Program-made: the position numbers and the translations under genes
Shown here: positions 8,905-57,422 of the stretch, piece by piece
How the letters are laid out: every line of letters starts with the position of its first letter
Position numbering within the stretch: position 1 is the first letter of the stretch
Notes under the pieces: model-generated
Told to the model about the DNA's origin: nothing
The model's input: the letters and a program-made list of their open reading frames with translations, nothing else
Database searches by the model: none
Assembly (NCBI GenBank): GCA_904373265.1
Contig: CAJFEE010000002.1
Location: 62,001 to 126,000, forward strand
Direction of reading: 5' to 3'
Length of the DNA: 64,000 nt
From: Candidatus Harrysmithiimonas galli
GTDB lineage: Bacteria > Bacillota > Bacilli > CAJFEE01

Positions 8905-9178
8905 TGCATTTACAAACCTTCGGTCAGAATATTTTTACTAGCATTTATATCTAGATCATGGTGTGTATGACGAATCGGACAAATCCAGTCTTGGATATTG
9001 AGAGGTTTCTTTTCGTCTTTGTGTCCACATTCTGAATAGATTTGACTGGATGGAAACCATTTATCCATCTTAATGATCTCACGTCCGTACCAGTCTCAGC
9101 TTTATACTGTAACTTGGTGACGAAACTAGACCGTGATACGTTAGAAATACACTTTGCTAGTTTATGATTACACGACAT
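8905..9178 (-). pseudogene. Remnant of an IS605-type tnpB (C-terminal part)
   Basis: The frame begins CNHKLAKCISNVS and FVTKLQYKAE, which are core TnpB blocks. The zinc-ribbon end continues in another frame as NIQDWICPIRHTHHDLDINA and SKNILTEGL, with one zinc cysteine changed to Arg (CPIR for CPxC). The N-terminal two thirds, including the first RuvC acidic residue, are gone, and there is at least one frameshift. No function is expected. It is directly downstream of the tnpA remnant, as in IS605. Confidence 0.85.
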
Positions 9179-10386: not shown

Positions 10387-10547
10387 ATTTATTTACTTGT
10401 AACAATCAAAAACAAAATAAATGACTTTTCGCTTATAGATTCACATACATATTTTGGCACATGACCTATTTCCCCTTTGTCCTTGCATGCATAATTTATA
10501 GAGTATCATATAAATCTTTTTATTTTAAAGAAAGGGTGAGGAGAACA

Positions 10548-11009
10548 ATGACTTACTATCAAAATTTCCAAGGCAGACGAGACAATCCATGCCTATTTTT
10601 TCAAAACCAAAACGGTGGAAATCACGAGGGAGAAAATTGCCAATCTACTTCCAATGGAAATGAGTCTGATACAGAAGGAGTAATCAATGAATCAATCAAC
10701 AGATGTGAATGTACGTGCACTTGCAATTGTAACACAAATTGTGGATGTAACTGTGATAACGCATGTGAACGAATTTGCTTAGATCAATGCCGTTGTCGAT
10801 ATGAACAGCAGGTGCATTGCTGTGAGCAACAATACAAAAGACAGCTGGCTTGTTTACAGCATGACTATGAGTGTTGCTTAGAACGTGCAAAATGTGAATA
10901 TGAACAATGCAAAACTTGCTGTAAATGTCAAAGAAATGATTGTTGTTGCTGCAATTTTGGCAGACGCAATCGTCGCAGGGGCTGGGGTGGAGGATTTTTC
11001 TTTATTTAA
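10548..11009 (+). CDS. Cysteine-rich protein, probable spore coat or crust component
   Basis: A 153-residue protein I cannot assign to a named family. Residues 1-55 are polar and Asn/Gln-rich. Residues about 58-140 are packed with Cys in patterns such as CECTCTCNCNTNCGCNC, CRCRYEQQ, CCEQQYKRQLAC and CCKCQRNDCCCC, and the end is Arg/Gly-rich (RRNRRRGWGGGFFF). There is no signal peptide. The start is the ATG at 10548 after GGTGAGGAG. A CATAATTTA box at 10490 fits a sigma-K -10 element, though its -35 is poor. Its position behind the cotD-like gene and its composition point to the spore surface; metal binding is an alternative. Confidence 0.7.
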   Translation: MTYYQNFQGRRDNPCLFFQNQNGGNHEGENCQSTSNGNESDTEGVINESINRCECTCTCNCNTNCGCNCDNACERICLDQCRCRYEQQVHCCEQQYKRQLACLQHDYECCLERAKCEYEQCKTCCKCQRNDCCCCNFGRRNRRRGWGGGFFFI

Positions 11010-11443
11010 CAAATGTGTCTATCCAAGCATTGTATTTTACAGATTATTTTAGTGCATAGAATTTCCTTTCATTGTTTTACAACAACAATGACCAGAAAAA
11101 TTTATATCAATTTGTATCTTTTTCTTATACTTTCATTAGAAAATATAAGACTTTTTCACACAATATAAAACATGTATGTATGAAAAGCTTGAGATTTTTC
11201 AAAAACTGCTCCTAAATTTTTTATCAAATGAATCTATCCTTCTTAAAAAACAACTAAATCAATAATTTTTCTGATAGCAAACAGAGGATTTCGGTAACCT
11301 TAAACTAACCGAAATTCCTCAATTTTTACTTTTTGAACGTCTTAGTCCTTGTATTTTTCCTAGTTTTTCTAAAAAAACCTAGGAAAAGTTTATTATTCAA
11401 ATTTTATGCATATATAATTCAAAAATTATACATATATTGGTTC
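11010..11443. other. Intergenic stretch with hairpins
   Basis: No coding frame. It holds the terminator at 11285-11332 and a weaker CCTAG-based inverted repeat near 11358-11386. The candidate small RNA starts just to the right. Confidence 0.5.
11285..11332 (+). terminator. Probable terminator of the Cys-rich gene
   Basis: Stem GAGGATTTCGGT pairing with ACCGAAATTCCTC (one bulged base), followed by AATTTTTACTTTTTG. It is 275 nt past the stop, so assignment is tentative. Confidence 0.5.
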
Positions 11444-11471
11444 TTCCATTCTGTAAAATTCATGTTATAAT
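11444..11471 (+). promoter_or_regulatory. Sigma-A-type promoter of a candidate small RNA
   Basis: Consensus -10 TATAAT at 11466-11471 with an extended TG one base upstream; weak -35 (TTCCAT) 16 bp before it. No gene follows on this strand for more than 2 kb. Confidence 0.55.
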
Positions 11472-11477
11472 ACATTA

Positions 11478-11650
11478 TGAAGATGAAACATGATCCTAAT
11501 TAAAATGAAATCATATCATCTTAACCCTTATGGATTGATTGTATTTTGTACCCCCAAATTACAGTCCAGTTCATAGACTCTCTCTCTGTTAAGGACAATT
11601 CCTAAAGGTCCTTAAAAACCGTTAGCTTATGCTAACGGTTTTTGTTTTAT
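11478..11650 (+). ncRNA. Candidate small RNA of about 170 nt
   Basis: A promoter ends at 11471 and a strong terminator ends at 11650, with no ORF of note between. The first 45 nt can fold into a hairpin (AAGATGA with TCATCTT; ATGAT with ATCAT). The middle is single-stranded and contains a C-rich TACCCCCAAATT. A second hairpin pairs TTAAGGAC with GTCCTTAA, and the terminator follows. The C-rich loop recalls target-binding motifs in Gram-positive trans-acting sRNAs. It does not look like 6S, tmRNA or SRP RNA to me. The genes to the right lie on the other strand, so it is not a leader of an annotated gene. Confidence 0.5.
11614..11650 (+). terminator. Strong terminator of the candidate small RNA
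   Basis: AAAAACCGTTAGC pairs perfectly with GCTAACGGTTTTT around a TTAT-type loop, followed by GTTTTATTTT. Confidence 0.8.
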
Positions 11651-11886
11651 TTTACACATACTTCATTCAAGTAAGTAAAAAAACGTTTGAGCAATAAATA
11701 AAAAAATACAGAATTACTTTATACTCCCTTACCAAATATAACAACTCCTTTTTTCTAGTCAGATTCCTCCCTCATAATAAACACTTAAAAAATAATCAAA
11801 TTACACATAATATGTCGATAGCTGATCAAAGCGTATATGAATTATGTAAATACTTATATCACTGCACATGAAAATAATAAATTGGT

Positions 11887-12360
11887 TTAACATAGATTTC
11901 CAAATGCTTGCTGACGTAGCGCTTCATAAATTAACACACAGGCTGTATTGGATAAATTTAAAGAACGAATCTTTTCTGTCATAGGAATCCGCAACGTATT
12001 TTCTTTATATTCTTCAATTAATTCCTTTGGCAAACCTTTCGTTTCTTTTCCAAAAACAAAAAAAATATTCGTCGTAAAATCTGAATAATCACAGTCACTA
12101 TAACATTTTTTTCCAAATTTTGTAATAAAATAAAATTTCCCATCTGGATACTGATCAAATAACTCATTTATGCTGTCATAATATGTAAGATTTACATGTA
12201 CCCAATAGTCTAAACCAGCACGCTTTAACATTTTATCATCGGTTCGAAAGCCTAACGGACGAATTAAATGAAGTGCTGTATCCGTACCTGCACAGGTTCT
12301 TGCAATATTCCCTGTATTTGCCGGAATCTCCGGCTGATATAAAACAACATGAATCGGCAT
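11887..12360 (-). CDS. trmL: tRNA (cytidine/uridine-34-2'-O)-methyltransferase
   Basis: SPOUT-class methyltransferase of 157 residues that methylates the wobble ribose of tRNA-Leu. Landmarks: the N-terminal LYQPEIPANTGNIARTCAGT, the middle block FVFGKETKGLP, and the knot-forming IPMTEKIRSLNLSNTACVLIYEALRQQ. Length matches TrmL (CspR in older Bacillus naming). A ribosome site AAGGAAGG precedes the start. It lies 15 bp after the yhbB-like gene, as cspR and yhbB are neighbours in B. subtilis, so both are probably one transcript. Confidence 0.95.
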   Translation of the reverse strand: MPIHVVLYQPEIPANTGNIARTCAGTDTALHLIRPLGFRTDDKMLKRAGLDYWVHVNLTYYDSINELFDQYPDGKFYFITKFGKKCYSDCDYSDFTTNIFFVFGKETKGLPKELIEEYKENTLRIPMTEKIRSLNLSNTACVLIYEALRQQAFGNLC

Positions 12361-29052: not shown

Positions 29053-29509
29053 ATTCTTTCCTCTCCTTTCAAAATCTTCCCATTCACTATAAAAAACCTT
29101 TTGAAAACTTTATGTTACAATATAAATATGTTAAAATATGGGCACCCCAAAGCTCACCAACAATCCTATATCACAGAACACTCAACTCGATAGTTATAGA
29201 AGCTATGAATAAAAACATCGCCACACCAATATACCAAAATTGTATACACCTTCAATTCTTACAAATGATCTATATCATTATGACATAATCATCTTTCTTA
29301 ATAATTTTTATATTACTATCTAAAAATATAAATCATACATGAATAAAATGATACAAAAAAATATTATAAATTAATTTATAATATTTTAAATATATTTAAT
29401 TTATTAAAAATAATATATTAACTGTTTTCAAGCAAAGACAGAAAATCCCTAATATATAAGAAATTCGAAAAAATCCATGAATTCATATGAATTGACCTCC
29501 ACCCACAAT

Positions 29510-29615
29510 TTATATGTGACACCTGCTTTTCGCTGACTGTTTTCCTATAATCTTCTTTCATTCGTATAAATATTGCATCTGGGGCTATTTTGGAATAACT
29601 ATTTCCTTTACCCAA
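29510..29615 (-). pseudogene. Fragment of an IS1182-type transposase
   Basis: About 30 codons read KGNSYSKIAPDAIFIRMKED, close to the conserved block (SYSKTD, DATFMRMKED) of IS1182-family transposases. The DDE residue Asp sits in this block in the family. Nothing recognisable remains on either side. Confidence 0.6.
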
Positions 29616-30281
29616 AATGTTGAAAACATCTTATATTTTTCTTTCCTAAACATTCAGCCTTCATGGAATTTTTTCATGCTTAATTTATAGGGAAAACTGA
29701 ATGTCATTCTTTTCTTTTACTACCAATGGTAGAGTTTTTTCATTTGTTTATCATAATTTTGTACGTTTTTTAAGTATATGTATATAATTTGTTGAAAATC
29801 TTTATCTACATAGCTTATCTTCTATAAGATATTTCTGAAATGATTTTTTTAGAAACAGGTACTAAATAACTTCTTTATATATCAGGATATTTTTCTTTAT
29901 TTTTTATATTTTTTTGAAATATATAATGCAAGCTATATGGCATTTGCTTCAATTATTTCTGCAAGACCACGTATAATAGAATTGATCTGACAAAACTTTT
30001 AATTTGATAAATTCAGTCCTCGTCTAATCCAATTCATCTTGTAGACAATCTTCACAATGGCATCCAAAAATGAATAAACAATATGTGCATTGCTGTCTAA
30101 TTTCATTTGTTTCTTTTAGTCATTTATATATTTTCGACTCATTATTATAGCATATTATATTTTACAGTTTGAAAGAACGCAATACATCCCCCCTTAACTA
30201 CGAGAGACTTTTTGCTGCCAAAGGTTAAATTTTTGAATTCAAACTCAGAAATACAGGCCACAAGCATATAATCACCATAAA

Positions 30282-30310
30282 GGACAATCGCAAACAATTT
30301 ACGATTGTCC
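30282..30310 (-). terminator. Hairpin after the siderophore ABC genes
   Basis: GGACAATCG pairs perfectly with CGATTGTCC, extended by AAA/TTT. Only a short TTTA follows on the minus strand, so termination may be weak. It is 200 nt past the stop. Confidence 0.45.
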
Positions 30311-30513
30311 AGGCAAATACACATATATAAAAAAATATGATATTATTTTTTTGAAATAATGAAAATTATACTGTTTATAAAAAACAAACGGATTTCATAT
30401 CATCACACAAGTCTACTGTCTCCTATCGAATCCATTTTTTCCTTAAAAATATTTTCTTTTTATGTTATTTTTTCTTTCTCACATAAACAATCAGATTTAC
30501 ACCCTACATGTGA

Positions 30514-40079: not shown

Positions 40080-43000
40080 TTACTTACTAAAATCTAAAAT
40101 TTTCTTTGCATTATATTCAATATACGGATGATTCATACAAGAAATATGATCCCCCTTCATCGTTCCAAAATGGAAATCATTTTTCGCATAGGGTTCCCAC
40201 GTTTCCTGATCTTCTGAAAACAGGCTAGGAAAGAAATTGGCAATCGCATCCTCACAATTAAATACCCTTAGTTTCCCTGAATACAATGGGGGTTCATAAA
40301 AAGAGACACATCTAAAATTCTGTGCAAAAACTCGAAATAATACATTCAACATTTTTCTTTGATGTTCCATTAATTGTCCATTCGGTCTTTCTATTGTGGC
40401 ATACAAATCATTCATTCTTTCTGTTGCACTCATATCGGCTAAACGGGTAAACTCCTCACCAGCCTCCGCAAATTCTCCTTTTAAGCTACATAAATCTTTA
40501 ACTGTAATCTGACCTTCATGATTAAAAATCAAAAATTCAATTATTCTCTGTAATGTACTATTATCTACTTTATGTCCTGCTTTCTGTATATTGGCATCTA
40601 TTAAACGAGCAAAAGTGCGCTCTAATAGCAATTCATTATATAAGCTTGTCTGAACTGCATGATAAAAAATTTCTTGAGGTAATTCTGCAAGTACAGTTTC
40701 TTTCTTTTTATGTGGAATGCTCGTACTCAACAAAGTAACACTAGAAACGTTTTTGTCATGTTTTTGCAAATATTGTGCAGTTTCCAGTGCAATCAATCCA
40801 CCGACACAATGACCAATTAATACATATTCAGAATATCCTAGCTCCGCTAATATCTTGCCATATTTATCCCCTAGAACTTTGAATATTTTTTCCGTTGGAA
40901 TTGCTAAATACTCAGCTTCATCTCCAAAAGTAAATCCATAAACTGCATCACCTTCACCGCTTCTTTCATTGATATAAGCTATCAATGAATGATAAGGTGT
41001 GAGCGTTCCTGTTCCTGCATGAAACACCACAGTCACTTTATTTCTGTTTTGCAATGGTTCTTTTATAACAACCAATGACTTGTCTTTCTCCACATTATTT
41101 CTGTTTTCCGTTAAACTTTTAGCAATACCGCGTATTGTTGGCATTTTCATCATTTCTTTTAATAAATCATCCCATTGCCATGTCCTAGCTTCTATTATTT
41201 TTTCTCTCATTTTTGCAATTACTTGTGCTATTAAAAGTGAATCTCCTCCAACTAAGTAGAAATTATCATTTCTGCCAATCTGATCGACATTTAATTCTTT
41301 ACACCAAATTTTTGCTATTTCTTTCTCCAACCCTGTTTGTGGTAGATCAGCACCACCCATGTTGCTTTCGTCACTTGCCTGGTCAGAAAACCATTCTGCA
41401 ATTTTCTTTCTATCAATTTTTCCATTCGATGTTTGAGGCAGTTCTGGAACAAATAAAACTTGAGATGGCACCATATATTCTGGCAATTTTTGTTCTAATT
41501 TATCCAACAATCTCTCTTTTTTAATCCTTGCATATGCTTCTTTAAACCGAATCACATATACTGTCTGACCTGCCATTTCTAAAATATCGCCTTTTTGGGG
41601 AAACTCATAGATAATTTCTGCATTGTTCTGTTCAAATATATCTTCCCATTGTTTTCTGGTAAAGAAGGTTTGATTATTCTCCTCTCTTTCATCTGTAAAT
41701 CCGGTTAATCCATCTTTAAATTCCATAGACGTTAATAAAGTATAGGATTCCCTTGTTTCCTCCAGTATTATCATTCTTCCGTTTGGTTTTAATAATTTTT
41801 TCAAGTTTTCAAAGACATCATGTATGTTTTTTGCATTATGCAATACATTTGCAGCTAAAATGATATCAAAGGAAAATGCCTTATACTTTTGTTCTATTAC
41901 ATCAACATTAATATCAAAAATCCCATACTTTACCCATTCATACTGACCAAACTTTTCTTTTGCATGATTCAAAAAGAATGTTGATAAATCAGTAAAATAG
42001 TATTCAGCACCTGTACCATCAAGCGCTGGAATGACATCCACCGATGTACCTCCAACACCCGCTCCAACTTCCAGCACTTTAATCGAATTCTCTATCTTAT
42101 ATTTAGCCAAATAAGATATTTCTGCTTTTGCTAATCCGTTCATAATCTTATTGATAATATTATCGTGATAGGCTGCCATAGCTACATCCATTTCACCTTT
42201 AGGAAATAACAAATTTAACGGATCTTCCTTTCCTGCCATTAGTTCTGGAAGCATACTGCTGGATGTTTTTAAATAATCCAGCAGTTTTTTGCTGTAATGA
42301 AGTTTATCTTCTACCGCATACATCGTCTTCCATAAATCTGTATCTGAATACGCTATTGCTACTATGCTATTAACTTTATATCCCCCGTTTTCACTATGAA
42401 TTATAATATTTTCTTTGCATAAAACATTCAACCATCTACTCATTAATTTGTGTAATTTTTCAGGAACATTTAATTGATTAATAATTTCTTTGAAACTATA
42501 TTCTCTTGATTCTTCATGAAAGATTCCTTTGTTATACAGAGTCAAAAAGATATCCGATAACACAACTTTGTTAGCCGTTTCAATCCAAAGTGGCAGCAGA
42601 TTTCTATCAATCTCTTGTGTAAGTTCACTTTCACATTTATCAATATTTTTTAACTCATCTTCTCTTATATATATGTCATGAAACATTTCTTTTTTCTTTG
42701 GAACAATGACAGTTGCAATGTACATATCTTCTTGGGCATTACCTAAAACAACGGAAACAACCTCCTGGATATCTTGATCATCGCTTAAAATAGAATCTAT
42801 CTCGGATAACTCTATTCTATGCCCTCTTATTTTTACCTGATTATCGGATCTACCCAAAAATTCGATCATACCATTTTCATCATATTTTCCAACATCGCCG
42901 GTTTTATATATTCTTTCTTTGGTCTTTAAGTATAAGAATTTCTCTCTTGTAAGCTTTTCATCCTTAAAATATCCAACAGCAAGACCTTCTCCTGCGATAT

Positions 43001-45614
43001 ACAAATCTCCTGGTACACCATCTGGGCAATTCTGTAGCCCTGCATTAAGAATATAAAATTTTTGGTTACTTAATGGATATCCATATGGAATGCTGTTCTT
43101 TTTTTCATATCCAATTGGAACTTCATAGTAAATGGACCATATGGCAGCTTCAGTTGCTCCACCCAAACTGATAACTCTTACACCTGGGATCTTTTGGTAA
43201 ATACTTTCTGGTAAATCAACTGGTATCCAATCTCCAGACATCAATACGACTTTTAACCCGCATATAATTTCTGAATCCAAACCATCCATGTATGTAACCA
43301 ACATTTTCATTTGAGCAGGCACGGAGTTCCACACGGTTACTTTGTGAATGATGAGTAGATCTAAAATATGTTTGGGATTTTTTTTCAATTTATCATCAGG
43401 AAGTACCAATGTACCCCCAACTGCAAATGAACCAAAAATATCATATACAGACAAATCAAATGCCAAATTTGCCAATCCCAAAAATACATCATTCTTATTT
43501 ATTCCAAATTTAGAATTAATATCGAATATTGTATTTATAGCAGCCTTATGTGTGACGACTACGCCTTTAGGCTGTCCTGTAGTGCCAGATGTATAAATAA
43601 TATATGCTGGCTCGTCATTACGTTGGTTCGTAGTTACGATTTCCTTATAACTATCTTTTTTATTTAATTCTAATATATTTATAATATTTAAATCATCATT
43701 ATATATGATTTCTTCGTTTTTTTCTGTAAAAATATATTTTACACCAGAATCTTCTATTATAGCGCTTCTTCTCTGAGCTGGCTGCATCGGATCAATCGGT
43801 AAATATACACCTCCCACCATTAAAGTACCCAATACACTTGCAATTTGCCATACGCCCTTAGACAGCATAATTGCAACAAGCGAGCCTGGAGTTAAGCCTC
43901 TGTTTAAAAGTTCTTCTTTCACAGTTGCCACATACTGTGCCAACGCATGATAGGTATATTCTCCTTCTTTTGTTATCAACGCAGTTTTATTTGGATATAA
44001 TTTTAAACTGTTAACAAACCCATCTGTAAGCAATGCATCTGGATATTTATAAGCCACATTGTTCACTTTATTTCGGATGTGATTTGTACTTACTGGCAAA
44101 TCAACAGGATCATACCTATCTAAAATATCGTACTCTTCTTTACTAAACCGATCCAAGATTCTACAAAATGCTTGGAACATCTGTTTAATTACAGAGTGAT
44201 TGAATATACCTGCCCTATAGTCCCAATTTACTGTAATGCCATCATTTTCTTCTGCAATTTGACAATCTATCCAAACTTGGGGCGTTTGACTAATTTTATA
44301 CGAAATGTGACTTCTTGATAAAAAAGAATCATCAGAATTTGTCACACCCAATGTACTTGTATATACAACTGGGATGATAATATTTTCTTTTTTACTTCGT
44401 CCCAAATCTCTCAACACCTCAATACCTGACACTGAACTATGCTGTAGATCTTCCCACAAATCCATTTGTATCTTCATAATTCTGTCTTTAAAACATTTTG
44501 GTTCGCTATAGTCCAATGACAAGACACTTACATCCGTGAAATCTCCTACTACCTTTTCAATATCTGGAATTGATTTATCCCGATTTAACATGGTTAAATT
44601 AATGCAAAATTTTGAGTTTTTAGACCATCGATTTATTATTTCACTAAAAGCAGCAAGAATAAGTGTAGACGGTGTCACTTTCATTTGCTGTGCAAATCTG
44701 GTAATGCTTTCTTTTCCATGGAGATGAATAAAGTATTTTACTTGCTCAAAAGCTACTTTTTCTGATATCTCCTCTGAAAAATCAACTATTAATTCAGGAG
44801 CTGCACCCATATCAACAATTTTTTTACTCCAATATTGTTCATCCTTTTTACGCTTTTCTGACTTTTGATGCTCCAACTTTTTATTGTGAATCACAATATC
44901 CCTATATAATGTAGCTACTACAGGTTCTACTGGCTCTCCATGATAGTAACGATCCAAATCATCCAAAATCAGATTTGCACTCATAAAATCCGTGATTAAC
45001 ATATCTAAAGAGAAATGAATTACACTCTTTCCGTTTCGTACAGATAAAACAATATCACATAGTGGCCAAGTTCCTAATTCATACTGTTTTTCAGCATATA
45101 TACTGCGAATGAATTCTTCTTCCTTTAACAGTGTAATATCATCACACGCTCTTAAATCATAATATGGAATATTCACATATGGAACATACGCCTGTACTTT
45201 TTGATAGCCTTCAGGATAAACAATTACTCGTAACATGTCATGTTTGAATATAACTTTATTCCAAGCTTCTTCTAATTTCTTATGATCCAATTCTTCTTCA
45301 TAAGTTATTTCTATATAACCATGACAAGTGACATTGCCCAAATTATATGCTCTATTTCGTCCCACTACATATGAATTTTGGATATTGGTCAATGGAAATT
45401 CTTCATATCTATCTTCTGGATGTTGTTCAAACTGTACTTTCTCTTCATTTAATTGAAAATACTGTATCATTGCCCGTTTCTGTTCTTTTAATTTCGATAA
45501 GATTTGTTGATTCATAACACTTTTAGGTGCTTGATAACGGATTTTTCCATCTTCTATCCATATTCTAATTCCTTTTCTTGATAAATTTTCCAATAATTTT
45601 TTTGTATTCTCCAT
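40080..45614 (-). CDS. NRPS: TubC docking-Cy-A-methyltransferase-carrier-TE
   Basis: 1844-residue terminal synthetase with the PchF architecture plus an N-terminal docking domain. Residues 1-55: TubC-type docking (LLENLSRKGIRIWIEDGKIR). About 60-490: heterocyclization domain with DMLITDFMS (DxxxxDxxS) and SQTPQVWIDCQ. From about 530: adenylation domain; TSGTTGQPKG at 675, and pocket residues in FDLSVYD, TVWNSVPA, VLMSGDW, SLGGATEAAIW that match the cysteine pattern D-L-Y-N-L-S-L-I-W. A SAM methyltransferase is inserted at about 1120-1390 (VLEVGAGVGG). A10 is NGKIDRKK at 1400; the carrier serine is in VGGDSLL at about 1458. The C-terminal thioesterase has GHCVGG: Cys1603 replaces the usual serine nucleophile. 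It should activate Cys, cyclise and methylate it and release the product. Confidence 0.92.
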   Translation of the reverse strand: MENTKKLLENLSRKGIRIWIEDGKIRYQAPKSVMNQQILSKLKEQKRAMIQYFQLNEEKVQFEQHPEDRYEEFPLTNIQNSYVVGRNRAYNLGNVTCHGYIEITYEEELDHKKLEEAWNKVIFKHDMLRVIVYPEGYQKVQAYVPYVNIPYYDLRACDDITLLKEEEFIRSIYAEKQYELGTWPLCDIVLSVRNGKSVIHFSLDMLITDFMSANLILDDLDRYYHGEPVEPVVATLYRDIVIHNKKLEHQKSEKRKKDEQYWSKKIVDMGAAPELIVDFSEEISEKVAFEQVKYFIHLHGKESITRFAQQMKVTPSTLILAAFSEIINRWSKNSKFCINLTMLNRDKSIPDIEKVVGDFTDVSVLSLDYSEPKCFKDRIMKIQMDLWEDLQHSSVSGIEVLRDLGRSKKENIIIPVVYTSTLGVTNSDDSFLSRSHISYKISQTPQVWIDCQIAEENDGITVNWDYRAGIFNHSVIKQMFQAFCRILDRFSKEEYDILDRYDPVDLPVSTNHIRNKVNNVAYKYPDALLTDGFVNSLKLYPNKTALITKEGEYTYHALAQYVATVKEELLNRGLTPGSLVAIMLSKGVWQIASVLGTLMVGGVYLPIDPMQPAQRRSAIIEDSGVKYIFTEKNEEIIYNDDLNIINILELNKKDSYKEIVTTNQRNDEPAYIIYTSGTTGQPKGVVVTHKAAINTIFDINSKFGINKNDVFLGLANLAFDLSVYDIFGSFAVGGTLVLPDDKLKKNPKHILDLLIIHKVTVWNSVPAQMKMLVTYMDGLDSEIICGLKVVLMSGDWIPVDLPESIYQKIPGVRVISLGGATEAAIWSIYYEVPIGYEKKNSIPYGYPLSNQKFYILNAGLQNCPDGVPGDLYIAGEGLAVGYFKDEKLTREKFLYLKTKERIYKTGDVGKYDENGMIEFLGRSDNQVKIRGHRIELSEIDSILSDDQDIQEVVSVVLGNAQEDMYIATVIVPKKKEMFHDIYIREDELKNIDKCESELTQEIDRNLLPLWIETANKVVLSDIFLTLYNKGIFHEESREYSFKEIINQLNVPEKLHKLMSRWLNVLCKENIIIHSENGGYKVNSIVAIAYSDTDLWKTMYAVEDKLHYSKKLLDYLKTSSSMLPELMAGKEDPLNLLFPKGEMDVAMAAYHDNIINKIMNGLAKAEISYLAKYKIENSIKVLEVGAGVGGTSVDVIPALDGTGAEYYFTDLSTFFLNHAKEKFGQYEWVKYGIFDINVDVIEQKYKAFSFDIILAANVLHNAKNIHDVFENLKKLLKPNGRMIILEETRESYTLLTSMEFKDGLTGFTDEREENNQTFFTRKQWEDIFEQNNAEIIYEFPQKGDILEMAGQTVYVIRFKEAYARIKKERLLDKLEQKLPEYMVPSQVLFVPELPQTSNGKIDRKKIAEWFSDQASDESNMGGADLPQTGLEKEIAKIWCKELNVDQIGRNDNFYLVGGDSLLIAQVIAKMREKIIEARTWQWDDLLKEMMKMPTIRGIAKSLTENRNNVEKDKSLVVIKEPLQNRNKVTVVFHAGTGTLTPYHSLIAYINERSGEGDAVYGFTFGDEAEYLAIPTEKIFKVLGDKYGKILAELGYSEYVLIGHCVGGLIALETAQYLQKHDKNVSSVTLLSTSIPHKKKETVLAELPQEIFYHAVQTSLYNELLLERTFARLIDANIQKAGHKVDNSTLQRIIEFLIFNHEGQITVKDLCSLKGEFAEAGEEFTRLADMSATERMNDLYATIERPNGQLMEHQRKMLNVLFRVFAQNFRCVSFYEPPLYSGKLRVFNCEDAIANFFPSLFSEDQETWEPYAKNDFHFGTMKGDHISCMNHPYIEYNAKKILDFSK

Positions 45615-45624
45615 TAATTTCTCC

Positions 45625-46365
45625 TCATGATTTTAAATATTTACTGGCAATTTCATTAATCATATCTAATACCTTTATTAGTTCTGACTTTATAAAAAAA
45701 TGATTCCCATCAAAAACTTTCATAGTAAAGAGATCTGAATAGTCTTTCCATTGTCTCATGTCTTCTTCATTCGCTTCTACATCATGTTTCCCGCAAAAAG
45801 CGGTAATTGGACAGTTCACTTTCTTTTTACTTACATCATAATATTCTTCATCCATGGTAAAATCAGTCTTTAATAATGGTAAAAATAGTTTCATTATTTC
45901 TTTATTTTGTAGAACTTCCACAGGCGTTCCTTCAAATCTATATAACTCCTTTAAAAAAGCTTCATCTGGCAAATGACCTATCGGTTTAGGTTCTGGTATA
46001 TGTGGAGCTCTACTACCAGAAACTATTAGTTCAACACTCCCCATCGCTTTCAACGCCATCGCCTTCTCTAATTCATACGCCACTTTCGCTCCCATGCTAT
46101 GTCCAAAAAGAATATATGGTTTTTGGACCACTACATCCATTTCCTCTAGCAAATCAGGAATCATATCATGAATGGATTCGTATGGTGTATCCACAATACG
46201 ATTCTCCCTTCCTGGCAATTGAACCGCATATAACCCAACTTTAGAATTTAGTCTTTTTTTCCAAGCATAGTATGCAGACGCACCTCCTCCAGCATAAGGA
46301 ATACAAAGCAGATTCACTTCTTCTCGTTCTTTTGCCATCGATATTTTTTCAATCAATTTTTCCAA
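45625..46365 (-). CDS. Type II thioesterase (proofreading)
   Basis: 246 residues, GrsT/PchC family. Landmarks: LLCIPYAGGGASAYYAWKK, QLPGRENRI, the nucleophile elbow FGHSMGA (Ser at about residue 88), an Asp in CGKHDVEA and the His in DGNHFFI. It removes wrong or blocked groups from carrier domains. The TTG at 46365, six bases after AGGAGG, is the likely start; the ATG at 46392 lies inside the preceding NRPS gene without a site. It is placed between two NRPS genes, 10 bp on either side. Confidence 0.9.
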   Translation of the reverse strand: MEKLIEKISMAKEREEVNLLCIPYAGGGASAYYAWKKRLNSKVGLYAVQLPGRENRIVDTPYESIHDMIPDLLEEMDVVVQKPYILFGHSMGAKVAYELEKAMALKAMGSVELIVSGSRAPHIPEPKPIGHLPDEAFLKELYRFEGTPVEVLQNKEIMKLFLPLLKTDFTMDEEYYDVSKKKVNCPITAFCGKHDVEANEEDMRQWKDYSDLFTMKVFDGNHFFIKSELIKVLDMINEIASKYLKS

Positions 46366-46375
46366 TGGTCTCCTC

Positions 46376-49300
46376 CTATATTGCCCCTTCATCTAAAAGT
46401 GAACTTTCTACTAATCTTTGTTCAATTTCTGTACTTAATGTTTTTATTGTAGAATTCAAAAATAGATCTTTCATTTCTAATTTTACATTGGGATAATTTT
46501 TATTGATCCGACTGACTACCTCTACAGCACGTAAACTATCTCCTCCACATTGAAAGAAATCATCGTTTCGCAAAAATTTATTTTTATATTTAAGGACTTC
46601 TTTCCATATTTGTCCAATGGATTTTTCCAACTCAGTGAATAAAAATTCTTCCTCTAACCTCCCATTTTCACCTTTTTGTACATTCGCCCATAATTGTTTT
46701 AAATCAACCTTCCCATTTTCATTCAATGGCATTTCACTCACCACACAAATCGTATCTGGCAAATAATAATCGGGCATTTTTTTCTTCAATGAAGCCATTA
46801 ATTTCTCCAAATCAATAGAATTCGTTCCCTTGGCACATACAAAAGCGTATATTTTATAATCTTTATAGCCCACTTTAGCTTGCTTCACATATTCAATACT
46901 CTGTAAAACATTTTCTATTTCTCCTAGTTCTATCCGGTATCCTCGTTTCTTAATTTGTGTATCTTGTCTGCCTAAAAACCATATACATCCATGGATCAAT
47001 TTCCCACGATCTCCAGTTTTATAGATGCGTTCCCCCAATTCATTGTTATATAGAAATTTACGTTCAGTTAAATCCTTATGATTTAAATATCCATCTGCAA
47101 GTCCTGCTCCAGCTATGTATAGTTCACCTTCCACATATTCAGGACATAATAATAAGTCTTCATTCAAAATATAATATTTTTGGTTCGTCAATGGATAACC
47201 ATAGGGTATACTGGGCCAATCCACATCTATTTCTTTCGGTTCGTAATAATTAGACCATATAGCGGCTTCCGTTGCCCCACCTAAACAAACTATACGTGCC
47301 TGTGGCATAATCAAATGAATTCTACTTGGTAAATCTTTATTAATTTTATCACCACTTAATAAGATCAAACGAACTGTAGCAAATTTTTCTATTTGGACAT
47401 CATTCATTTCTACATATGTGCATAACATTTCCATGAATGTTGGCACTGAGTTCCATATTGTAATAAAATTCTCATGGATTAGTTCAACCCATTTCCGTGG
47501 ATTTTTAACATCTTCCTCTCGCGGTACTACTATTGCAGCTCCTGCCTCAAACATGCCAAATACATCATACACAGAAAGATCAAAGGCAATATTAGACAAT
47601 GCCAAAACTCGATCATTAGAGCCAACAGAATATCTTTTATTTATATCTAGTATGGTATTATTAGCAGCTCGATTTGATATAACTACTCCTTTCGGAATGC
47701 CTGTACTACCAGATGTAAAAATAATATAGGCAATTTGATTCTCTCGTACATAATCTACATCTCTATAATTAATCTTCTGAGAAATTTCTTCTACGCATAT
47801 ACATTTTGTATTGAATTGGTTTTCCATTTGATTCAGGAGTCTTCTGCTTGTTATGAGAACATCAATCTCTGCTTCTTTTATGATGGTATGGACTCTCTTT
47901 TCTGGGTTATGAATATCAATTGGAATATAGGTTGCCCCTACCATAGTTGCCGCAAGTACACTTTCAACTTGTTTGATACCTTTTTCCAAAAAAATTCCTA
48001 TTCTTTTACTGTGTAATAATTCAACAGATAATTGTTTTGCTGCATATTTACAATCTCTATAAGAATATTTACTGTTATCATAAATTATGGCTATGTTATC
48101 AGGCGATTTCTTGTATGAATTATAAAAATATTCATATAAATTATTTTCTGATAATAGCGTGGTATCTAATTCTGTCTTAGGTACTGTTTCGCTTAAAATC
48201 TTAATATGGCTTCGCATAGGTTTTTCCCATAATTCTTTTTGATCCAAAGAACCCAAAAACTGCTGATAACACTCAAACATATGTTGTATCATACATGTAT
48301 GAAATTTTCCCTTTAAGACATCCCAATTAAAATATAGTTCCCCTTTATATTCACGTACTTGATAGTCTAGCCAAACTTGAGGTGTCTGAGTCAAACCATA
48401 GGTATATTTTCCTGGCATACTCAGTGAATCAGCACTTCCCAACATACTTGTAAATACAATCGGAAACGCATTTCCCAAAGGCACTTCATTTTCTTTTGTC
48501 CAAATTCTTTGTATCTCCAAGCCATCAAAATAACTATAATTCATATTTTGAACGACTTCGCTTTGCACAGCCTTGCACTTATCTATAAATGTAATTTCTT
48601 TTCCGTTTTCTATAGATACCAACACGATATCTGTAAATTCTCCAAGAACAGATTCATACACAGTATCATATAATCCTTTTTTATTCACTGTCACATTGAT
48701 TGTAAATTTCTTTTCACTACACCATCGGTATAAAACTTCAGAAAAAGCAGTAAGCAAAATACTACTCGGTGTTAAACCATAGGCATTTGCCAGAGATTTA
48801 ATGTGATTCCATTTTTCTGCTGGCAAAATTTCCATCATCCTAAAAAATTCACCAGTAATATTTTTATTTAATATCGGAAGTTCTGGCTTACCTACAATCG
48901 TTCTGATTTTTTCTCTCCAGAATACTTCAGAAACCCTATAATTTTCTGTATCCTTAATCAAACTCAAGCTTTCTACATAATCCCTAAACGGTTTACCAGC
49001 ATTCACAGTCTCAAATTTGTTTCCATTATATAAATATTCCCATTCATCCAGTAGTAAACATATGCTGCTTCCATCCAATATAAGATTGTCAAAACTGATA
49101 TGTATGCAAAAATTGTGTTGCATAGATTTTGAAATTCGGATATCAAAAATAGGCCAACGTTCTACATCCAGGACTTGAGTTTCCATCTGCTTTCGTAATT
49201 CTAAAAATTTATCTTCCTGAGCGCCAAAATCATAAAATTCCAAACGATACTTAGGAGATTTTTCCAATATATATTGAGACATTGTTTTTTTATCCATTAC

Positions 49301-49768
49301 AATCCGTAATGCCTCGTATTTACCAATCAACAAATTCCAAGTATCTTCTAAAAATTCGATATCTAATTCATCTCTTTCCAATTCAATATAAAAATGTGAC
49401 GATACTCCATAACTTCCCAAAACGGTCTCTCTTCCTAATAAATATGCTTTTTGTATAGGTGTTAATGGAAAATATTTTTCAGTTACATCATATTTAGGAA
49501 GCGATATTTTAAAAAAGTTATTGGGTTGCATCATCTGCAATTCCTGTATCCGTGCCGCCAGCAATGCAATCGTAGGATAATCAAAAATATCCTGAAAATT
49601 TATCGTAACAGAAAATGTTTTCCTTATTTTCTGAAGTATTTTTACAGCAAGAATAGAATTTCCTCCCATAGCAAAAAAATTTTCATCTGTACTGGCAATT
49701 TCTATATTTAATTCCTGTTCAAATATTTCCTTTATATTCTCTTGTAGATGAACTAGACTTTTCTCCAT
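46376..49768 (-). CDS. NRPS: carrier-Cy-A-carrier
   Basis: 1130 residues. Carrier 1 with MGGNSILA (Ser about 35); Cy domain with DNLILDGSS at about 228 and SMLGS, TQTPQVWLDYQ; adenylation domain with FTSGSTGIPKG at about 685 and NENGKVDLKQ at about 1019; carrier 2 with CGGDSLRA at about 1076. The pocket residues (FDLSVYD, TIWNSVPT, LILLSGD, CLGGATEAAIW) fit the cysteine code. The extra N-terminal carrier in front of a Cy is the arrangement that needs loading in trans or a preceding Cy from another protein. The start overlaps the previous NRPS gene by 50 bases. Confidence 0.92.
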   Translation of the reverse strand: MEKSLVHLQENIKEIFEQELNIEIASTDENFFAMGGNSILAVKILQKIRKTFSVTINFQDIFDYPTIALLAARIQELQMMQPNNFFKISLPKYDVTEKYFPLTPIQKAYLLGRETVLGSYGVSSHFYIELERDELDIEFLEDTWNLLIGKYEALRIVMDKKTMSQYILEKSPKYRLEFYDFGAQEDKFLELRKQMETQVLDVERWPIFDIRISKSMQHNFCIHISFDNLILDGSSICLLLDEWEYLYNGNKFETVNAGKPFRDYVESLSLIKDTENYRVSEVFWREKIRTIVGKPELPILNKNITGEFFRMMEILPAEKWNHIKSLANAYGLTPSSILLTAFSEVLYRWCSEKKFTINVTVNKKGLYDTVYESVLGEFTDIVLVSIENGKEITFIDKCKAVQSEVVQNMNYSYFDGLEIQRIWTKENEVPLGNAFPIVFTSMLGSADSLSMPGKYTYGLTQTPQVWLDYQVREYKGELYFNWDVLKGKFHTCMIQHMFECYQQFLGSLDQKELWEKPMRSHIKILSETVPKTELDTTLLSENNLYEYFYNSYKKSPDNIAIIYDNSKYSYRDCKYAAKQLSVELLHSKRIGIFLEKGIKQVESVLAATMVGATYIPIDIHNPEKRVHTIIKEAEIDVLITSRRLLNQMENQFNTKCICVEEISQKINYRDVDYVRENQIAYIIFTSGSTGIPKGVVISNRAANNTILDINKRYSVGSNDRVLALSNIAFDLSVYDVFGMFEAGAAIVVPREEDVKNPRKWVELIHENFITIWNSVPTFMEMLCTYVEMNDVQIEKFATVRLILLSGDKINKDLPSRIHLIMPQARIVCLGGATEAAIWSNYYEPKEIDVDWPSIPYGYPLTNQKYYILNEDLLLCPEYVEGELYIAGAGLADGYLNHKDLTERKFLYNNELGERIYKTGDRGKLIHGCIWFLGRQDTQIKKRGYRIELGEIENVLQSIEYVKQAKVGYKDYKIYAFVCAKGTNSIDLEKLMASLKKKMPDYYLPDTICVVSEMPLNENGKVDLKQLWANVQKGENGRLEEEFLFTELEKSIGQIWKEVLKYKNKFLRNDDFFQCGGDSLRAVEVVSRINKNYPNVKLEMKDLFLNSTIKTLSTEIEQRLVESSLLDEGAI

Positions 49769-52700
49769 CTGCGTTTAACTCTCCTTTTAATTTGCTAATA
49801 TATCTTGCCAATTCTTGAATGTTAGGATGTTTGAATATATCATACGGAGATAGTTTTATACCAAATTGACTTTTTACTTTAGCTGCTATTCGCATAGCAG
49901 AAACAGAGTCTGCGCCCATAGCATAAAAATCATCTTTCAAATTTATTTCATTTTCCCAAAAAATCTCTTGACAAATAAGAACCAATTCCTTTTCAAACTT
50001 GGAACTCTCCAATTGTATATCCATTTTTTTTGGAACCAAGTATCGCTCTAATTCTTTACGATCTATTTTTCCGTTTCGATTTATCGGCATATTAAACAAT
50101 CGATATATATGAGTCGGAAGCATATCATTTGGAAGTTGCTTTGCCAACTCATCTCTAATATCCTTTTCTTTGATATTTGCACACTTAGTATAAAAAGCAG
50201 CAATCCTTTTTTGTCTTTTCTGAAATATAACTGCCGCACTACCTACTCCCTCAATAGAATTCATAACTTTCTCGATTCCATCTAATTCAATTCTTCTTCC
50301 ATTGATTTTAACTTGCCGATCTTTTCTTCCCAAAAACAGAATCTCCCCATTTTCAAGATACTTGCCGCAATCCCCAGAATTATAAACTCTGGTATCTTTA
50401 TATTGCATAAACTTTTCTTGACCATCCTGTCCTACATAACCAGGAGAAACGCCCTCTCCAGCAATATACATTACTCCCTCTTTTCCAATCGGACATAACT
50501 GCATATCTTTTCCTAAAATAAAATATTGCGTATTAGGGAAAGGTTTCCCATATGGAATCTTACCCTCTAGAATGTCTGCATAGGATACTTCATGATAAAT
50601 ATTCCATATTGTCGTTTCTGTCGGTCCGCCTACATTAAATACCCTACATTTCTGGTTTATTTCCTTAATTTTTTTAACAGTTGCAACTTGTAAATAATCG
50701 CCTCCTTGAATCACTACTTTTAAATTTTTAAGCACCTTTTTTAATTTGTCCTTTTCAACCAAAATAAGCATTTCCAAAAAAGCGGGTACGGAATTCCAGA
50801 CTGTAACTGCATATTTAGTCATCAAATCAACCCATATGTCCGGATTTTTATAATTCTTCTGATCAGGAATAACAATTGTTCCACCAATATAAGACATACC
50901 TAAAATATCAAATATGGACATATCATGGCTATAATTCGTTAAATTAAAAATCACATCATTTGCTGTTATACCAAAAATATTTGAAGACATTTGAATACAA
51001 TTTATAATTCCCTCTTTTTCTAATTTCACCGTTTTAGGAAAACCCGTTGTACCTGATGTATTTATCAATATCATAATTTCATTTCGTAATGGTTGTATAT
51101 ATTCTGTATCTTCACAATAATCACTAACTGTACTCCCCATTCGGAGAAGTTGCATACCAAATTTCTGTATGCAGTCTAATTCACTTGTCAAATCTGTGAT
51201 GAGCATCTTTATCCCTATATTCTTGATACAATATTCAATTGCTTCTTTAGGAAGCGCATAATCTAATGGAATAAAGGGAATATTCATGTAAGCTAAAGCT
51301 AACTCGCATGCAACTTGTATTGTACTTTTTGGCATATATATCCCTACAATATCACCAGTTTGTAATTTATATTTTTGTATAAATATTTTACCTATATTTT
51401 TGCAAAATCTTTCTAATTGTCCATAAGTAATTTTCGTATATTGATCTATAATGACAGGTTTATCCTTATAATCGGAAAAATTCATTCTTAACTTCTCATG
51501 GAATGAGCTTCCTTTTTCCTTTTCTATTATTTTATGAGTTCCTTCAATAATCTTCCTATCTGTTTCTATAAGTGGAATATCTGTCATTTCATGCAAAAAG
51601 CATTCATTATATCCAATACAATTTAATGTTTCAATAAAGTAATCTGCTATTTTTTCAGGAATCATACGTTCAAACATCTCATCTACATAGCTTAAAGTAA
51701 ATAGCACTCCTTTTGATGTTTTAGTCATTAGCCCTTCAAGCCATACCTGACTGGTATATGTTTTTGTACATATTTTTCTAAAATGTACATTTTGTTCCGG
51801 TTTACTGTTTAATGTACTTGTAAAAACAACAGGAGCAATTATTTCTTCTTTTCTAGTATGCCTTAATAATTTGGTTTGATCCGACCCCATAAAATACATT
51901 CCATACTCTCTTATTTCAAATAATTTTTCCTGATTGATTTTTATCTGTTCCATAAGACTGATTTCTTTATCATTATGAAAATCCAATAAAATAAAATTCG
52001 AACATAAACCAATCAAATGCTCTATTCCTTTTAGTTCTACTGGCCGCTGCATCACAGGAAGGTTAATAAGAAATTTCTCATTATACGAATATTTCCCTAT
52101 CACCTTACCAAAAATCGTTAATAATAAAGCAAAAACCGTTACACCATTTTCTTTTGCAATTTCACACAATTTCTTATACTGCTGGTCACTTATTTCTTTA
52201 GAAACGATTTTAACCATTGGATTTTTTATTTCTTCAGGAGCTCTTTTTAATGGTAATTGTGGTTTCATATCATACCCATCAAATCTTATACTCAAGGCTT
52301 CTTTTGCCTCTTTATATTGTTCTGTTTCTTTTATCTTTAATAAATATTCAGTGTATTCAGGGAATGTTATATGTTCTTCTACTTTTTGACCGTAGTAATA
52401 TCTTTCAAGTTGTCTTAGTATGATTTGATGGCTCTCTCCATCCGCAATTATCCCATCATGACATAAATGTACAATTGTCTTTATATCGTCCATCCGAACT
52501 ATTAAGAAACGTATAAGCGGTCCTTTTTTTATATCAAATTCTTTGCTAAACATTTCTTCAGACAATCTCTTAGTTATGACTTTTTTCTCTTTTTCTTCTA
52601 CATCTCTAAGATCTTTATATTCACACCAGAATTTTGCTTCTTCATTGATATACATTGTATCCTCATTTTCAATTCCTGCTCTAAGCATTTCCTGAGAGAA

Positions 52701-53090
52701 CACCAATTTTCTAATCGCAGCTTCAAGGCGAACTTCATCAATTTCTTCTCCCTCAAAGGCAAAATATGCATGCGACCCGAATCCGCCTAAAATCATTTCT
52801 TCTTTTCTGCCGAGCAAATATGCTTTTTGCAGATCAGTCATTTTAAACAAATTCCTGTTCTTTGGTTTCTCACTCTTTTCATTAAGTAAGTTATATAAGT
52901 CATTAAGATTACCATTCGAAAATAGTACCCGAATTGGAATTCTTAATCCATATACTTTTTTTATCTCAACTTGCAATCTTCCAAAAAACAAAGAGTCACC
53001 ACCATATTTTATAAAAGATTCACCCTCATCAATTTCTTCTCTATTTAATAAATACAAAATATTTCTTTTTAAATCTTTTTTATTTATCAT
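49719..53090 (-). CDS. NRPS: (aryl) carrier-Cy-A-carrier
   Basis: 1123 residues. The N-terminal carrier (YGGDSLFFGRL, Ser about 30) is the likely aryl carrier partner of the AMP ligase. Cy domain: HDGIIADGES at about 215 (DxxxxDxxS), YTSQVWLEG. Adenylation: INTSGTTGFPKT at about 680, NRNGKIDRKE at about 1005. Carrier 2: MGADSVSA at about 1058. The adenylation pocket differs from the other two modules (SHDMSIFD, TVWNSVPA, VVIQGGD, NVGGPTETTIW), giving roughly D-M-F-N-(I)-G-V-I-W, so cysteine is not certain. The start is taken as the ATG at 53090, directly after the upstream stop; a TTG at 53108 is possible. It matches the first part of PchE/HMWP2. Confidence 0.9.
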   Translation of the reverse strand: MINKKDLKRNILYLLNREEIDEGESFIKYGGDSLFFGRLQVEIKKVYGLRIPIRVLFSNGNLNDLYNLLNEKSEKPKNRNLFKMTDLQKAYLLGRKEEMILGGFGSHAYFAFEGEEIDEVRLEAAIRKLVFSQEMLRAGIENEDTMYINEEAKFWCEYKDLRDVEEKEKKVITKRLSEEMFSKEFDIKKGPLIRFLIVRMDDIKTIVHLCHDGIIADGESHQIILRQLERYYYGQKVEEHITFPEYTEYLLKIKETEQYKEAKEALSIRFDGYDMKPQLPLKRAPEEIKNPMVKIVSKEISDQQYKKLCEIAKENGVTVFALLLTIFGKVIGKYSYNEKFLINLPVMQRPVELKGIEHLIGLCSNFILLDFHNDKEISLMEQIKINQEKLFEIREYGMYFMGSDQTKLLRHTRKEEIIAPVVFTSTLNSKPEQNVHFRKICTKTYTSQVWLEGLMTKTSKGVLFTLSYVDEMFERMIPEKIADYFIETLNCIGYNECFLHEMTDIPLIETDRKIIEGTHKIIEKEKGSSFHEKLRMNFSDYKDKPVIIDQYTKITYGQLERFCKNIGKIFIQKYKLQTGDIVGIYMPKSTIQVACELALAYMNIPFIPLDYALPKEAIEYCIKNIGIKMLITDLTSELDCIQKFGMQLLRMGSTVSDYCEDTEYIQPLRNEIMILINTSGTTGFPKTVKLEKEGIINCIQMSSNIFGITANDVIFNLTNYSHDMSIFDILGMSYIGGTIVIPDQKNYKNPDIWVDLMTKYAVTVWNSVPAFLEMLILVEKDKLKKVLKNLKVVIQGGDYLQVATVKKIKEINQKCRVFNVGGPTETTIWNIYHEVSYADILEGKIPYGKPFPNTQYFILGKDMQLCPIGKEGVMYIAGEGVSPGYVGQDGQEKFMQYKDTRVYNSGDCGKYLENGEILFLGRKDRQVKINGRRIELDGIEKVMNSIEGVGSAAVIFQKRQKRIAAFYTKCANIKEKDIRDELAKQLPNDMLPTHIYRLFNMPINRNGKIDRKELERYLVPKKMDIQLESSKFEKELVLICQEIFWENEINLKDDFYAMGADSVSAMRIAAKVKSQFGIKLSPYDIFKHPNIQELARYISKLKGELNADGEKSSSSTREYKGNI

Positions 53091-53092
53091 AT

Positions 53093-54370
53093 TTATTTTT
53101 TTCTCCAATTCCCAATATCATTTAATTTTAAAATATATTTAATATATGTATTGAATATATTTGCAATTTCAACCTCATCCAATACCTCTTTCAAAATCAC
53201 CCATGTAAAAAATAATCCATCATCTTTCCGATAAACCTGTGCATCTAACCATACTCCTGGTGTTTGGGAAATTATATATACCAACTCTCCAATATTACTT
53301 GTAAATTCCGCTGTAACAATTGGCATATTCAAACTAGGTGAAAACACAAATGGTACTGGATATTTTTCGTTAGTTGATTTTTTTATAATGGTTTGAATTG
53401 ACAATCCATCTAGGCAGCAATGTGACCAATCTTTCCTATAAATCTCATACATTGAATCAAAAAACTTCTTAAAACACATATCCGTTTCAGATTCACATTT
53501 AAAAATAATACTCTTTGTAAAATCCCCCACTATATTCAAATTTCTTTGATTCCTTTCAGACAAAAGATAATTAACCAAAATTCTCTTCTTCCCTGTTTCT
53601 TGTAAAACCACATAACAAAGAACAATTAAGAGATACACCTCTACTGTAACACCCTGTTTTACTGCTAATTTAACAATTGAATCATATTCTTTATTCTCAA
53701 TTTCTGATTGAAAGCTTATATAATTATATTGAGATAATTCCTGGATATTCTTTTGCACTTTAAATGGAAATTCTATATAATCATTTCCCATCCGCTCTTG
53801 CCAATATCTTTTTGCTTTTAATACCTCATCCTGACAAATGATATTTTTTACTTCTATTTCTTCACCCGACTGATAAAATATACCTTTACCATCTCGTATT
53901 TTCATATACATATCCGCTAAGTCTTTTAATATCACTTGAAAACTATGTACATCACAAATTACCAAATCCAATTCAAATCCAATACGACAGATCTTATCTT
54001 GAGATTTTATTACATGCAGTTGACACGCGACTTCATTTTCAACATCCAGAATCTGATGAGAAATTTTCTGTCTTATATTCTTTCTTTCAAACTCACCAAT
54101 ATCCCACTCCTTATATGCCTTATAACATTGTATTTGCTTAAAATCACCAATATATAAAATTCCACAATCATCGCAACGTGCCCGCATCATTGGATGAATT
54201 TTGAACAACTCTGCCCATGCTGCTTTTAAACTTTTTTCTTCAATATCTTTTTTTGTTTGAAATTCCATGTATACATGGCATGGAACCCCCATATTTTCAG
54301 CAGTGTTTTTTCTTTCAATCATATATGCACATTGCAATGGAGTCATTAGTACCATTTTTTCCTCGTTCAT
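53093..54370 (-). CDS. Stand-alone heterocyclization (Cy) domain protein
   Basis: 425 residues, one condensation-superfamily domain and nothing else. It has the cyclization motif DLVICDVHS (DxxxxDxxS) at about 142 in place of HHxxxDG, and late Cy motifs FVFSPSLN and ISQTPGVWLDAQ. It should join a carrier-bound amino acid to the growing chain and close a thiazoline or oxazoline ring, acting in trans. It lies between the AMP ligase and the first NRPS. The start is the ATG at 54370 after GTGAGGTG; the upstream stop overlaps this site. Free Cy domains are rare compared with embedded ones. Confidence 0.88.
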   Translation of the reverse strand: MNEEKMVLMTPLQCAYMIERKNTAENMGVPCHVYMEFQTKKDIEEKSLKAAWAELFKIHPMMRARCDDCGILYIGDFKQIQCYKAYKEWDIGEFERKNIRQKISHQILDVENEVACQLHVIKSQDKICRIGFELDLVICDVHSFQVILKDLADMYMKIRDGKGIFYQSGEEIEVKNIICQDEVLKAKRYWQERMGNDYIEFPFKVQKNIQELSQYNYISFQSEIENKEYDSIVKLAVKQGVTVEVYLLIVLCYVVLQETGKKRILVNYLLSERNQRNLNIVGDFTKSIIFKCESETDMCFKKFFDSMYEIYRKDWSHCCLDGLSIQTIIKKSTNEKYPVPFVFSPSLNMPIVTAEFTSNIGELVYIISQTPGVWLDAQVYRKDDGLFFTWVILKEVLDEVEIANIFNTYIKYILKLNDIGNWRKK

Positions 54371-54378
54371 GTTACACC

Positions 54379-57336: not shown

Positions 57337-57422
57337 TTCCTCCAGCAACACAGTTTCCATATCAATACGTACATAAATAAGAAAAAGCATTTTATCCTTA
57401 TCTTATAAATTTGCTGTTAAAA

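Follow-up and report, generated by a model that had tools for sequence, protein, structure and literature searches.

Does the gap between a putative coat gene and trmL in Candidatus Harrysmithiimonas galli hold a small RNA gene of its own and, if so, of what kind? The locus lies in a 64,000-nucleotide stretch of contig CAJFEE010000002.1 (hereafter the window), in which a first-pass annotation had proposed a stand-alone transcript at 11478-11650. On sequence grounds, the candidate is a credible new orphan gene for an sRNA of a known kind. We assign a probability of roughly 60% to its being a lineage-restricted, independently transcribed non-coding sRNA that probably acts in trans by blocking Shine-Dalgarno sequences. 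Counted in favor of this reading were the fold, the enrichment of promoter-terminator pairs, a terminator-like hairpin belonging to the coat gene itself, the lack of a translatable ORF, the unpaired C-rich stretches and the existence of published analogues. Counted against it were the lack of any relative, the equally good pairing of shuffled loops, the commonness in gaps of hairpins with the raw stability of H2, and a weak -35 element.

Anatomy, promoter and coding potential

The upstream neighbor of the candidate is a putative, cysteine-rich coat gene (10461-11009) that has no Pfam match and is preceded by a CotD gene (PF11122). Downstream, both trmL and an amidase gene lie on the minus strand, as had been noted at first pass. 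No convincing plus-strand gene follows soon after the RNA, so a role as a leader or riboswitch is unlikely. Relatives of TrmL occur in Bacillus, Gottfriedia and Listeria and, together with the presence of a spoIIA operon, they suggest that the host is a spore-former of class Bacilli. Elsewhere in the window, translations reveal a large nonribosomal-peptide-synthetase cluster (40080-57390) with thioesterase-like and phosphopantetheinyl-transferase-like genes, whose product is perhaps a siderophore, as well as overlapping short minus-strand frames (8910-9178) that by eye resemble the disrupted C-terminal part of a TnpB-like transposon protein.

Table 1. Coordinates in the window of the candidate RNA, its parts and adjoining features.
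Feature	Position	Strand	Remarks
Terminator-like hairpin, 12-nt loop, T-rich tail	11284-11335 (hairpin 11284-11320)	+	-14.9 kcal/mol
Extended -10 TGTTATAAT	11463-11471	+	directly 5' of RNA; predicted +1 at ~11478
Candidate small RNA, ~170 nt	11478-11650	+	fold z -7.4; no Rfam family
Hairpin H1	11480-11522	+	z -2.6 for 11478-11526
Unpaired AACCC, abutting H2 on its 5' side	11523-11527	+	from pair probabilities
Hairpin H2, apical hexaloop UACCCC at 11549-11554	11528-11576	+	z -4.9 for 11524-11580
CU-rich linker ACUCUCUCUCUGU, unpaired	11577-11589	+	from fold prediction
Hairpin H3, 11-nt loop AAUUCCUAAAG, most of loop unpaired	11590-11614	+	z -2.4
Intrinsic terminator, perfect 13-bp stem, T-rich tail	11614-11652	+	stem near-symmetric
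trmL, convergent neighbor	11887-12360	-	SpoU methylase family, PF00588

The fold of the candidate RNA is far beyond chance. Its predicted energy of -49.6 kcal/mol (z -7.4) was equalled by none of 200 shuffles, and a second test gave z -7.0 for the full RNA and -2.8 after removal of the terminator (5 of 500 shuffles equal). The fold contains three hairpins, not the two of the first-pass annotation, and H2 taken alone (z -4.9) was equalled by none of 500 shuffles. The single-stranded C-rich sequence of that annotation is recovered in the predicted pair probabilities, in which the C run forms the loop of H2; the long unpaired stretch that follows H2 is CU-rich, and the AACCC on the 5' side of H2 is also unpaired. 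The description of the terminator as perfect is borne out as well, as its arms (11614-11626 and 11631-11643) form 13 of 13 pairs around a 4-nt loop and are followed by a T-rich tail.

In raw energy the region is unexceptional: 15 of 320 stretches of 135 nt were equally stable, and 57-nt stretches of similar or lower GC that are at least as stable as H2 occupy 192 distinct gap places in the genome sample, terminators included. The frequency of stable hairpins in gaps speaks for an alternative in which the locus is not a gene, and consists of a bidirectional terminator shared by the convergent coat gene and trmL, chance hairpins and a chance -10. The terminator itself also fits this alternative, as the reverse strand of its stem matched itself in the DNA search, which marks it as a near palindrome. 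The alternative is harder to reconcile with an H2 that outperforms all 500 of its shuffles and with the terminator-like hairpin at 11284-11335, already in place upstream, which probably ends the coat-gene transcript ahead of the RNA's promoter. Taken with the promoter-terminator pairing and the same-family comparison described below, these points leave the shared terminator as a possible but unlikely explanation. The proposal of a stand-alone transcript accordingly stands as the best reading of the anatomy, with the qualification that the near-symmetric terminator may serve trmL too, from the opposite strand.

The upstream hairpin also bears on a second alternative. Small RNAs derived from 3' UTRs are known, and with the coat gene on the same strand only 0.5 kb upstream, the RNA could be processed from the coat-gene transcript and have no promoter start of its own. 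This origin seems improbable, as the terminator-like hairpin lies in between and the extended -10 is placed at exactly the spacing expected for the +1. Coding is less plausible still. The candidate has no ORF of at least 40 aa, in agreement with the ~170 nt without an ORF reported earlier, and its ATG frames of 8, 23 and 28 codons all lack a Shine-Dalgarno sequence. The two longer frames would be needed for a small mRNA encoding a peptide of 23-28 residues, or for a dual-function RNA, and we judge either to be very improbable, given Shine-Dalgarno energies of -1.5 and -1.7 kcal/mol (the median for 999 sampled genes is -10.2) and the passage of the frame through the stable H2.

The extended -10 had been correctly recognized, and it sits just 5' of position 11478, the expected +1. 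Such motifs occur in the window at chance frequency (7 versus 7.7 expected), which favors the shared-terminator explanation. Four of the seven lie 17-86 nt before a same-strand gene start in a hand-chosen gene list, an interval into which ~5% of positions fall. The -35 element is a poor one, and a -35/-10 scan did not include this promoter among its 12 listed sites; by eye, the promoter looks sigma-A-like and not sigma-F/G-like. The pairing of promoter and terminator argues against a chance -10. When extended -10 motifs were required to lie 50-400 nt upstream of a strong terminator on the same strand and in the same gap, 8 cases including the candidate were found among the 111 strong intergenic terminators in a 44% sample of the genome, whereas two control motifs of the same composition gave 1 and 2. 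One of the seven other pairs precedes a tRNA gene and serves as a positive control.

Six more such pairs (at L149, L156, L178 and L196) have no known RNA at them, and L178 also carries a CRISPR array. Within the window, a 1.4-kb gap (29053-30513) without a listed ORF of 110 aa contains a minus-strand extended -10 (30152-30144) and a strong hairpin (~30277-30333), and is a possible second orphan transcript. Just 5' of the candidate's promoter, a 22-bp direct repeat (11391-11434, 82% identical, spacing 22) could be an operator or an AT-rich chance occurrence. Comparison with consensus sequences for the Fur, PerR, Rex, CodY, ResD, FNR, Zur and Spo0A operators gave nothing convincing at the promoter. 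The best fit to the Fur-box consensus has 6 mismatches in 14 fixed bases; elsewhere in the genome the same consensus has 9 palindromic places at one mismatch, as compared to 1 for a control.

Relatives and known families

Searches for relatives returned the candidate itself and a few weak matches. It was the only match in a DNA search of 41 genomes and in a search of 39 genomes with a core pattern that allowed three mismatches. A more sensitive search of 39 genomes matched five, namely the host and four others at 19-20 bits that were judged from their context to be chance. A covariance model built from the single sequence (R1) and run on 398 genomes of the class matched three, the host and two weak matches also judged to be chance. 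Of these two, the one at L114 is no more than a strong hairpin with no counterpart of the third hairpin, and the one at L115 is antisense within a large ORF. This class-wide search was limited to scoring at most eight candidates per genome and may therefore have missed weak relatives. Nothing beyond one match at E 0.87 appeared in 80 named trmL neighborhoods. Plasmids contained no match to the RNA, viral contigs contained no exact match to its core, and phages yielded a single weak AT-rich match located upstream of the RNA proper. In G001, the only same-family genome compared, the trmL-amidase pair is kept and another gene and a GC-rich repeat take the RNA's place, a replacement that is in keeping with the shared-terminator explanation. 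The repeat-like element (L004:1285-1395) adjoins trmL at the position expected for the RNA.

An Rfam search, named beforehand as a check that could overturn the proposal, found no family that covers the RNA at either gathering or relaxed thresholds; its only matches were far below the cut-offs (for example, 28 bits against a cut-off of 55 for the Pseudomonas rnk leader). As the candidate matches no known RNA family and was not found in any other genome searched, it probably represents a new regulator of an ordinary type.

The UACCCC in its hairpin loop, as in the RoxS of G001, raises the alternative that it belongs, in diverged form, to the RoxS/RsaE or FsrA family. The covariance model of RoxS/RsaE (RF01820) did not match the candidate, and that of FsrA (RF02273) had no match in 11 genomes, the host's included. 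In G001, the RoxS/RsaE match is sited between genes that we take, from their sequences and the known gene order, to be pepF and yjbH. The host has a diverged relative at the same place, between pepF-like and yjbH-like genes (L232:936-1052 on G000 C4; 32.1 bits versus a gathering score of 79). At this score it would escape a scan at the curated cut-off. The candidate is not at the pepF-yjbH place typical of RoxS. Because the genome has its RoxS relative elsewhere, and because the candidate's promoter lacks a Fur box although the genome has such boxes, the RNA is neither RoxS nor FsrA; membership in either family, for which an Rfam match is also lacking, is mostly refuted and hardly credible. 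The candidate is a further C-rich RNA, distinct from the genome's RoxS relative.

Predicted target pairing

In the mechanism that we propose for the sRNA, a sigma-A-type extended -10 promoter would drive a transcript of ~170 nt that would end at its own intrinsic terminator. Its three hairpins are predicted to keep four elements unpaired: the UACCCC loop, the AACCC linker, the CU-rich linker and a UUCCU loop. By analogy with other C-rich sRNAs of low-GC Gram-positives, the C-rich loop, widened to UUUUGUACCCCCAAAU when the top four pairs of H2 open (as the fold predicts), would pair in trans with the G-rich Shine-Dalgarno sequences of mRNAs and block ribosome binding.

Duplex energies were calculated for the start regions of 999 predicted genes from the genome sample. 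The loop paired with them at a mean of -9.3, as compared to -8.2 for coding interiors and -9.6 for the reversed loop. At -15 kcal/mol or better, the loop reached 57 of the 999 genes, the reversed loop 77, and 40 shuffled loops a mean of 56, with 17 of the 40 reaching 57 genes. As the loop pairs no better than its reversed or shuffled versions, duplex energy by itself does not support any specific targets. A first anti-loop pattern had 20 sites versus 27 for its control. The complement of 11549-11564, with wobble pairs permitted, was found in 2 of the 999 start regions at up to one mismatch (equalled by 41 of 2000 flank-shuffled loops), in 3 at up to two (179 of 2000) and in 6 at up to three (893 of 2000), and a whole-genome search with it returned 10 sites besides the RNA itself, as compared to 6 for the control. 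The flank-shuffle signal is borderline and partly post hoc.

Four predicted targets emerged from this work (spoIIAB, refZ, cas3 and a gene for a NapG-like ferredoxin), and they are leads only. The gene for the anti-sigma factor of sigma F, spoIIAB, which is part of a spoIIAA-spoIIAB-sigF operon, ranks second of 999 with a duplex of -22.4 kcal/mol that extends across its GGGGG ribosome-binding site and start codon and consists of 10 bp, one bulged A and at least 5 further bp. A Gumbel fit gives this duplex p 0.005, which corresponds to ~14 equally good genes per genome if ~2600 genes are assumed. The other three, all high scorers, have an exact 14-mer, TTGTATTTTGGGGG, in their start regions, although the start codon of the NapG-like gene is uncertain. 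This 14-mer consists of the RNA's own 5' stem arm and the complement of its loop, so that strand displacement by these targets could open the hairpin. Its carriers (L144:3391-4038, L176:14937-17531 and L182:3963-4619, all on the minus strand) have unrelated flanks. A 16-letter pattern built on TTGTATTTTGGGGG has exactly three perfect matches genome-wide, all at or near the refZ, cas3 and NapG-like starts, and 19 matches at up to two mismatches, as compared to 3 for the control. Fifteen 14-mers occur in at least three of the 999 start regions; 12 belong to a CRISPR repeat, two reflect common Shine-Dalgarno contexts and the last is TTGTATTTTGGGGG, whose rarity is post hoc because the 14-mer was noticed after ranking.

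That a lineage-specific sRNA tunes entry into sporulation by pairing its C-rich loop with the spoIIAB start region and with the TTGTATTTTGGGGG of refZ, cas3 and the NapG-like gene is a long shot. Apart from spoIIAB, only two of 18 proteins scanned from the loop's own list have names linked to sporulation or germination, refZ and a YodN-like germination protein; in the reversed-loop control, 0 of the 7 family-matched genes in the top ten of sample 2 are named for sporulation. A literature search of titles found none that refers to an sRNA directed at spoIIAB, and this gene is not named in the main text of a paper from 2025 on the control of sporulation by RNA. If the spoIIAB or refZ lead were true, it would add a post-transcriptional input into sigma-F activation.

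Comparison with C-rich RNAs of Firmicutes

The C-rich, Shine-Dalgarno-blocking sRNAs of Firmicutes are a functional kind and not a homology family. The same design and mode are described for IsrR, RoxS, FsrA and LhrC; in RoxS, IsrR and LhrC, it is the C-rich regions that are reported to bind, at Shine-Dalgarno regions or at G-rich sequence close to the start codon (PMC4409812, PMC8216469, PMC9410917, PMC4132741). A C run in unpaired regions, a feature of this kind, is present in the candidate in terms of predicted pair probabilities. If it is transcribed, the candidate would be a C-rich sRNA confined to a single lineage and existing beside a RoxS relative, and it would shed light on how such regulators originate.

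RoxS/RsaE RNAs share with the candidate C-rich loops with UACCCC, an intrinsic terminator and proposed Shine-Dalgarno blocking (PMC4409812, PMC8216469), whereas the candidate has no sequence or covariance match to RF01820. FsrA and CsfG of Bacillus subtilis likewise have C-rich regions predicted to be unpaired (PMC8216469). However, FsrA has no match in the host genome and the candidate lacks a Fur box, and CsfG differs in that the candidate's promoter looks by eye sigma-A-like and not sigma-F/G-like. LhrC of Listeria resembles the candidate in its CU-rich motifs, located in loops and linkers, but it is described as having several copies and UCCC motifs (PMC4132741), whereas the candidate is single copy, has no UCCC in its unpaired stretches and has no Rfam match. 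The nearest known RNA in design is IsrR of Staphylococcus (PMC9410917). Both are built from three hairpins followed by a terminator, with a C-rich unpaired loop and a C-rich stretch directly 5' of H2. IsrR acts on nitrate-respiration genes, and the candidate's top predicted partner is the NapG-like ferredoxin gene, which adjoins an nrfA-like gene. The two RNAs differ in that IsrR is described as being under Fur control, whereas the candidate's promoter has no Fur box and its context is a coat gene and trmL.
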